The notes beneath the pieces were generated by a model. That model had not been told where the DNA came from, ran no database searches, and was given only the letters and a program-made list of their open reading frames with translations. Position numbers and translations under genes: made by a program. A DNA stretch of 64,000 nt from Halovivax gelatinilyticus (GTDB lineage Archaea; Halobacteriota; Halobacteria; Halobacteriales; Natrialbaceae), in contig NZ_CP101322.1 in NCBI RefSeq assembly GCF_024300625.1, positions 1,005,992 to 1,069,991 on the forward strand, in the 5' to 3' direction. Shown in pieces: positions 43,197 through 58,290 of this stretch (within the stretch, counting starts at the first letter, position 1; every line of letters starts with the position of its first letter).

Positions 43197-43270
43197 GGGC
43201 TCGTGGTCTAGTTGGTTATGACGTGGCCTTTACAAGGCCGAGGTCGGTGGTTCGAATCCGCCCGAGCCCA
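43197..43270 (+). tRNA. tRNA-Val (TAC anticodon)
   Basis: The 74-base cloverleaf has acceptor stem GGGCTCG/CGAGCCC, D-arm GTTGGTTATGAC, anticodon loop TTTACAA giving anticodon TAC (reads GUA and, by wobble, GUG), and T-arm GGTTCGAATCC. The discriminator is A and CCA is not encoded. No intron is seen. A 23-base copy of its 3' end lies 136 bases downstream. Confidence 0.95.
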
Positions 43271-43272
43271 TA

Positions 43273-43407
43273 TTTCTGCCGCGAACAACGTCGTGAGCGG
43301 TAGAAATCTGTTGTGAGGACGGTTCGAACCCTGCAAGTCGCAGCCCGCGCAGCGCCGGAGGCGCGAGCAGGACCGTCTCGATTCGGTTCGAATCCGCCCG
43401 AGCCCAT
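43273..43407 (+). repeat. tRNA-Val downstream element with duplicate of the tRNA 3' end
   Basis: Immediately after the tRNA is a stem TTTCTGCCGC ... GCGGTAGAAA (43273-43306). Next comes a core (43321-43380) beginning GGTTCGAACCCTGCAAGTCG and ending CGAGCAGGACCGTCTCG, then at 43385-43407 an exact 23-base repeat of the tRNA-Val 3' end (43249-43271). The core is closely related to one downstream of tRNA-Phe at 58207-58280. Its nature (integration remnant, small RNA, tRNA processing site) is open. The rest to 43500 holds nothing I recognise. Confidence 0.65.
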
Positions 43408-58087: not shown

Positions 58088-58161
58088 GCCGCCTTAGCTC
58101 AGACTGGGAGAGCACTCGACTGAAGATCGAGCTGTCCCCGGTTCAAATCCGGGAGGCGGCA
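58088..58161 (+). tRNA. tRNA-Phe (GAA anticodon)
   Basis: The 74-base cloverleaf has acceptor stem GCCGCCT/AGGCGGC, D-arm TTAGCTCAGACTGGGAGAGC, anticodon loop CTGAAGA with anticodon GAA, and T-arm GGTTCAAATCC. The discriminator is A and CCA is not encoded. No intron. Confidence 0.95.
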
Positions 58162-58163
58162 TT

Positions 58164-58290
58164 TGCTGCTGCGAGCAAACCGCGAGCAGCAGGAATCCAT
58201 CCGACTGGATTTGAACCCTGGAAGTCACAGCCGCGCAGTGAGGAACGAACGAGCAGGACCGTCTTGCTTCGTTCAAATCCAAACGCCACG
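58164..58290 (+). repeat. tRNA-Phe downstream element, related to that after tRNA-Val
   Basis: A hairpin with arms CTGCTGC and GCAGCAG follows the tRNA (about 58166-58192). The next element runs GGATTTGAACCCTGGAAGTC to GAGCAGGACCGTCTTG, bounded by a perfect inverted repeat GGATTTGAAC (58207-58216)/GTTCAAATCC (58271-58280), whose second arm repeats this tRNA's T-arm. The core is shared with 43321-43380. No gene is seen in the remaining gap up to 58489 apart from a palindrome at 58475-58486. Confidence 0.62.

Follow-up and report, generated by a model that had tools for sequence, protein, structure and literature searches.

Palindromic units in tandem behind haloarchaeal tRNA genes as possible cassettes inserted at the T-loop

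Described systems that resemble the units

Integron integrases recognise their attC sites as folded single strands, the outer box of attC being GTTRRRY, and CRISPR and casposon integration proceed by insertion proximal to an anchor, a segment of which is duplicated. The units described here, which trail the tRNA genes of haloarchaea, share several of these traits. As in integrons, they stand in tandem behind a fixed anchor, change on the anchor-proximal side and become reordered, and, as in attC, each contains an imperfect palindrome with outer and inner boxes, an unpaired spacer, a variable terminal hairpin and an outer box that starts with GTT. Nonetheless, the units are not members of integrons, since in the three features tested they have no adjacent integrase, a different outer box (GTTCRANNC, that of the tRNA T-loop, instead of GTTRRRY) and no genes, for which they leave no room; each unit, moreover, repeats ~20 bp of its anchor. 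As in CRISPR and casposon integration, they would insert next to an anchor with duplication of an anchor segment, from which they differ by a conserved palindrome and an inverted copy of the anchor.

Archaeal tyrosine integrases use tRNA attachment sites (PMC8371274), at which the tRNA 3' end is repeated directly on either side of the insert and the tRNA stays whole, as is the case here. On the contrary, the present units are non-coding, measure ~105-160 bp, lie behind about half of the sampled tRNAs and possess both an inverted T-loop arm and a common core that is independent of the tRNA. The small mobile repeats of Haloquadratum, MITEs and PATEs, defined by terminal repeats or palindromes (PMC3119063), are likewise short, non-coding, palindromic and repeated in haloarchaeal genomes, but the accessible text of that survey mentions no link to tRNA genes. 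Nothing resembling tRNA-linked units figures in the available portions of either source (PMC8371274, PMC3119063), and a search of the open literature returned no description of them. Both the cassette-like arrangement and the palindromic element behind tRNAs in most of the haloarchaeal genomes searched thus appear undescribed.

The two starting loci and the anatomy of a unit

The window, a stretch of 64,000 nucleotides of Halovivax gelatinilyticus (NZ_CP101322.1, positions 1,005,992 to 1,069,991), contains two units on the forward strand, anchored at tRNA-Val(TAC) (43197-43270) and tRNA-Phe(GAA) (58088-58161), both called by ARAGORN and Rfam RF00005. The original prediction of a related element behind both genes, with a shared core at little-varying distance, was borne out: GAGCAGGACCGTCT is found exactly at 43365-43378 and 58251-58264, its sole exact matches in the window, and starts 95 nt past the end of tRNA-Val and 90 nt past that of tRNA-Phe. 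The short hairpin anticipated directly 3' of each tRNA is also recovered by folding (H1, 43272-43307 for Val and 58163-58193 for Phe), that of Val lying at a position that is constant in other units. At tRNA-Val, the announced 23-base repeat GGTTCGAATCCGCCCGAGCCCAT, comprising 22 tRNA bases and one flanking T, is exact; its first copy (43249-43271) is the T-loop, T-stem and acceptor 3' segment inside the gene, and its second (43385-43407) forms the right edge of the unit. The inverted arms expected to mirror the T-arm of each particular tRNA are present on the left as inverted T-loop copies, GGTTCGAAC at Val (43321-43329), recognised from sequence and from the arm specificity test, and GGATTTGAAC at Phe (58207-58216), whereas the right-hand copy at Phe is reduced to GTTCAAATCC (58271-58280), its acceptor part having decayed. 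Between the arms, alignments A1-A3 (and pair counts for Val) delimit the palindromic cores, formed at Val (43334-43380) by the left box CAAGTCG(CAG), a variable hairpin and GAGCAGGACCGTCTCG, and at Phe (58220-58264) by GGAAGTCACAG, a variable hairpin and GAGCAGGACCGTCT. Taken by itself, the core has no clear advantage in folding energy over shuffled sequences (z of -0.46 for Val and -1.48 for Phe), and Rfam searches of the window, with curated and with relaxed thresholds, gave tRNA matches alone.

Units in general are non-coding and mostly ~105-160 bp long, 244 at most, and follow one order: the hairpin H1, the left arm R'', an unpaired spacer, the left box, a hairpin of variable length, the right box, a spacer and the right arm R'. 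The left box (..AGTCGCAG) and the right box (GACCGTCT..) make up a conserved imperfect palindrome; R'' is an inverted copy of the T-loop and the first T-stem positions (e.g., GGATTTGAA), and R' a direct copy of the T-loop, whose GTTCRANNC is the outer box, the T-stem and the acceptor 3' strand of the host tRNA. In an alignment of 118 matches, which was fitted to the covariance model but agrees with the small unfitted alignment A2, pairing is kept in 92.9% of cells and double changes number 186 versus 56 in shuffles. Changes in the box stem are almost purely of the Watson-Crick type, with just 4 G-U among 587 standard pairs, while about 5.7% of the T-loop arm pairs are G-U; when G-T and A-C mismatches were compared as a test of the strand, the box stem showed neither and the T-loop stem was mildly inclined to G-T, but one position with a fixed partner dominated.

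The left arm is specific to its tRNA. At the positions where T-loops vary and at the first T-stem positions, its agreement is higher with the host tRNA than with other tRNAs (own/other values of 0.94/0.63, 0.80/0.48, 0.62/0.41 and 0.49/0.25), and in distant genera the arm follows the T-loop variants, TTCAATTCC of Gly-CCC going with GGAATTGAA and TTCAATTCGG of Tyr with CCGAATTG. Two other descriptions of the arms were discarded: a full-length anti-acceptor arm, given that the T-loop and first T-stem positions alone stand clearly above swapped-tRNA controls, and a bulge-helix-bulge intron in the T-loop, given that both T-loop copies have the same orientation, which prevents pairing between them. 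As a separate observation, a T-loop copy variant with one inserted C (GTTCACAATC) recurs at several different tRNAs, Lys, Thr and Pro among them, in association with one type of spacer, in which CGNCGTNG precedes the copy.

The hairpin and the palindrome are distributed differently. H1 is common only to tRNAs whose 3' ends are identical or almost so (similarity above 0.8 in 4 of 29 such pairs and in 0 of 1905 others), and often reappears after the last copy (Thr, Ile, Arg), whereas sharing of the palindromic core is independent of the tRNA; a 65-nt palindrome at tRNA-Phe of one genome (G134) is 94% identical to that at tRNA-Val(GAC) of another (G087), their H1 and acceptor parts being different. 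The palindrome bounded by T-loops is thus the part common between tRNAs and, since H1 follows the tRNA and the palindrome does not, a unit is not strictly a single heritable block.

Distribution and turnover of the units

Both sites are members of a haloarchaea-wide family. In the H. gelatinilyticus genome, the exact core is found six times, in all six cases a short way past a tRNA (Val, Phe, Ser-GGA, Lys-TTT, Glu-TTC and Lys-CTT) and on its strand, with near-copies behind Tyr (three units) and Leu-CAA, Lys and Glu having more than one unit. A covariance model built from nine units gave 32 matches in this genome, 28 of them behind 20 of its 41 tRNAs and all on the tRNA strand, the first units mostly beginning 38-74 nt past the tRNA. 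The other four comprise one match each behind an intron-containing tRNA-Met and behind a tRNA-like gene, both of which the family search missed, one 19 kb past tRNA-Arg, and a weak match. Hence the possibility of a core confined to these two sites, raised along with the original prediction, clearly falls, the core being widely present at other tRNA loci and in relatives. The tRNA-like gene, not called by ARAGORN and followed by a unit, lies on the minus strand (L122, G000:C1:1296800-1298300). The displaced unit is located ~19 kb past tRNA-Arg(TCT), with an integrase gene ending 0.2 kb ahead of it (G000:C1:2200197-2219658; L031, L121, L371), and an integrated element probably sits between this tRNA and its unit. 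In another genome (G071), a 3-kb element encoding a 369-aa tyrosine integrase (L120:3131-4240) lies between near-identical units at tRNA-Gly(TCC) (L120:2775-6060), its right end repeating the tRNA-Gly half from the anticodon onward.

In four genomes of the genus, the own 20-nt 3' end is copied within 700 nt downstream in 79 of 168 tRNAs, 66 of which have an exact copy, as opposed to 1 of 89 upstream and 10 of 1590 when the ends of foreign tRNAs were sought in those flanks, so that chance does not account for the copies; successive copies are mostly 104-160 apart. About half of the tRNA genes sampled carry one to five units downstream. Beyond the genus, model matches occur in 130 of 146 genomes of the order, and a phylum-wide draw of 295 genomes yielded 50 with matches, all 50 within the order. 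Similarly, an exact-pattern scan in which each bacterial and archaeal species was represented by a single genome gave 80 loci, all haloarchaeal; in the genomes searched, the units are restricted to this order. The duplicated tRNA 3' end accompanies 13 of 13 named tRNA-linked matches (from Halorubrum, Halomarina, Halomicrococcus, Halobaculum, Halobellus, Halorubellus, Halegenticoccus, Natronobiforma and haloarchaeal metagenome-assembled genomes). The best matches of other genomes adjoin a tRNA in 27 of 29 cases, a figure biased towards tRNAs since the model includes the T-loop arms, and the other two loci end at a contig edge.

In Halorubrum, Halorussus and related genomes, the core is away from tRNAs in 58 of 82 matches (L266-L344, e.g., L308:2750-3400). 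These dispersed copies are contained in longer intergenic elements, each comprising several modules that are imperfect palindromes (GGGACTCAAAGGGGCAGTCGCGAG...CTCGCGACTGGGGCTTTGG), frequently after a TTTATAAA box and sometimes with tandem ...GGGGCTTTC... end copies; ten loci with such copies gave no Rfam match.

The number of units per orthologous tRNA ranges from 0 to 5, as illustrated by Gly-TCC (2/5/1) and Asp (decayed/3/2). Between G134 and G147, two species with flanks 93-97% identical, most unit-bearing tRNAs differ. At tRNA-Phe, an a-b-c array in one corresponds to c in the other, and the additional two units occupy exactly the interval from the tRNA to c; these are either incoming or old ones that were lost, but not local duplicates, since their H1 is unrelated to that of unit c. 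Glu shows x-y against y (identity of 0.95 for y, tail 93% identical), Val(CAC) A-B against B-A (identities of 0.93 and 0.96), and Lys(TTT), Thr(CGT) and Ser(CGA) exchanged or replaced units, those of Lys and Thr looking swapped. The junctions of the differing units are inside the repeated T-loop-acceptor segment. Presence or absence of whole units is precise and their order changes, although gain and loss are indistinguishable in single G134/G147 cases. An exact tandem is also found at Arg-CCT in G087.

Such variation makes one suggested role, that of a conserved signal for tRNA 3' processing or for termination, unlikely, orthologous tRNAs having 0 to 5 units and about half having none. The alternative suggestion of an attachment-site remnant comes nearest among the three originally put forward and stands in part: the direct copy of the tRNA 3' end is real and units appear and vanish precisely there, but they are not the remnant of one ordinary element, considering that (i) units contain no integrase or element body, (ii) tandem arrays lie behind about half of the tRNAs, and (iii) they turn over between close species.

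Possible origins of the units

The best explanation, to which we would give an even chance, is that the units are small non-coding cassettes inserted site-specifically at the tRNA T-loop by means of an attC-like imperfect palindrome. A cassette would enter the tRNA gene inside its T-loop-to-acceptor segment and supply its own copy of that segment, leaving the tRNA intact, while the old 3' end and older cassettes would be displaced downstream, generating the tandem array. The part recognised would most likely be the palindrome consisting of anti-T-loop, left box, variable hairpin, right box and T-loop, probably as a folded single strand by analogy with attC, with an exact crossover point that may be placed within the segment. 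The arm might be fitted to each tRNA by templated copying, which is a guess. Insertion by cassettes would account for the change next to the tRNA and for the attC-like architecture, as well as for the exact acceptor copies, since a cassette ruining the tRNA would be lost.

Insertion would be carried out by a recombinase, for which a host Xer-type tyrosine recombinase is the natural candidate. A single-copy XerA-like gene (G000:C1:3187205-3188212, L361), whose best NCBIfam match is recomb_XerA_Arch, below cut-off, has counterparts in each of the 122 good genomes from the order; being universal, also in good genomes without model matches, it is a candidate with an uninformative profile. The search for integrases and further copies suggested at the outset yielded the copies, at many tRNAs, but, among five PF00589 matches in the H. 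gelatinilyticus genome, no integrase within 10 kb of its unit-bearing tRNAs; one of the five is 0.2 kb from the displaced unit (2219577). Neither were integrase or mobility genes encountered within the units, non-coding at such size, which share with tRNA-integrated mobile elements the direct repeat but not the gene content. Counting against cassettes are the failure to find a recombinase linked to the units, the separate inheritance of H1 and palindrome, the position of the Halorubrum and Halorussus cores, mostly off tRNAs, and the fact that no excised circle or empty-site junction was seen within one species; ordinary recombination between the 22-23-bp repeats can, in addition, delete or reorder tandem units.

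The main rival, a serious one though rather unlikely in our estimate, is that the units function as a structured RNA in read-through transcripts of the tRNA (a trailer, a small RNA or a protein-binding hairpin), copies being multiplied and lost by unequal homologous recombination and passed from one species to another along with flanking DNA, without any dedicated recombinase. It agrees with the constant location on the tRNA strand, the strong conservation of pairing, the G-U tolerated in the T-loop arm and the TATA-like sequences ahead of dispersed Halorubrum copies, and swapped orders are possible through tandem duplication and deletion, for which the tandem at Arg-CCT in G087 is the expected product. 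However, a structure lacking from about half of the tRNAs and widely variable among orthologs must be dispensable, a base-for-base acceptor copy is needless for an RNA hairpin, the box stem changes nearly without G-U intermediates, the folding energy of the core is not unusual, and both first units and units with unrelated H1 are left unexplained.

It is improbable that the units are scars of ordinary tRNA-targeting integrases, left by excised proviruses or plasmids, or mini-elements moved in trans by them. Archaeal attB sites are usually located at tRNA 3' ends (PMC8371274), and integrase genes do occur between two near-identical units at tRNA-Gly in G071 and beside the displaced unit 19 kb from tRNA-Arg; nevertheless, such integrases are site-specific, whereas core and architecture are the same behind different tRNA sequences, and the G071 element repeats the tRNA half from the anticodon and not from the T-loop. 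Furthermore, the tRNA-Val unit found no match in phage and plasmid collections, nor the long core pattern an exact one in viral contigs, a looser pattern giving at least 120 matches and being too unspecific to use. Ectopic gene conversion with replication template switching, by which cores would spread through T-loop annealing and the local T-loop, acceptor and hairpin would be recopied, accounts for H1 following the tRNA when the core does not, for the left arm matching each tRNA and for the frequent recurrence of H1 after the last copy, but on its own leaves the constant anatomy, the tRNA-adjacent position and the order-wide box conservation unexplained and is very improbable.

Returning to the cassettes, an integron-like haloarchaeal system can be proposed tentatively, in which tRNA T-loops would serve as insertion platforms where a host recombinase would integrate and shuffle palindromic, non-coding cassettes, each re-supplying the tRNA 3' end. 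Even if homologous recombination alone were at work, a conserved palindromic element, apparently undescribed, trails tRNAs in most haloarchaeal genomes searched. If the proposal is true, a large proportion of the tRNA genes across an archaeal order would be platforms for recombination, with incoming cassettes taking the place of their 3' ends time and again. The preference of integrating elements for tRNA genes would then have a natural model of its origin, integron recombination might have its counterpart in archaea, and haloarchaeal laboratory strains would provide a marker of recombination that is easy to score.
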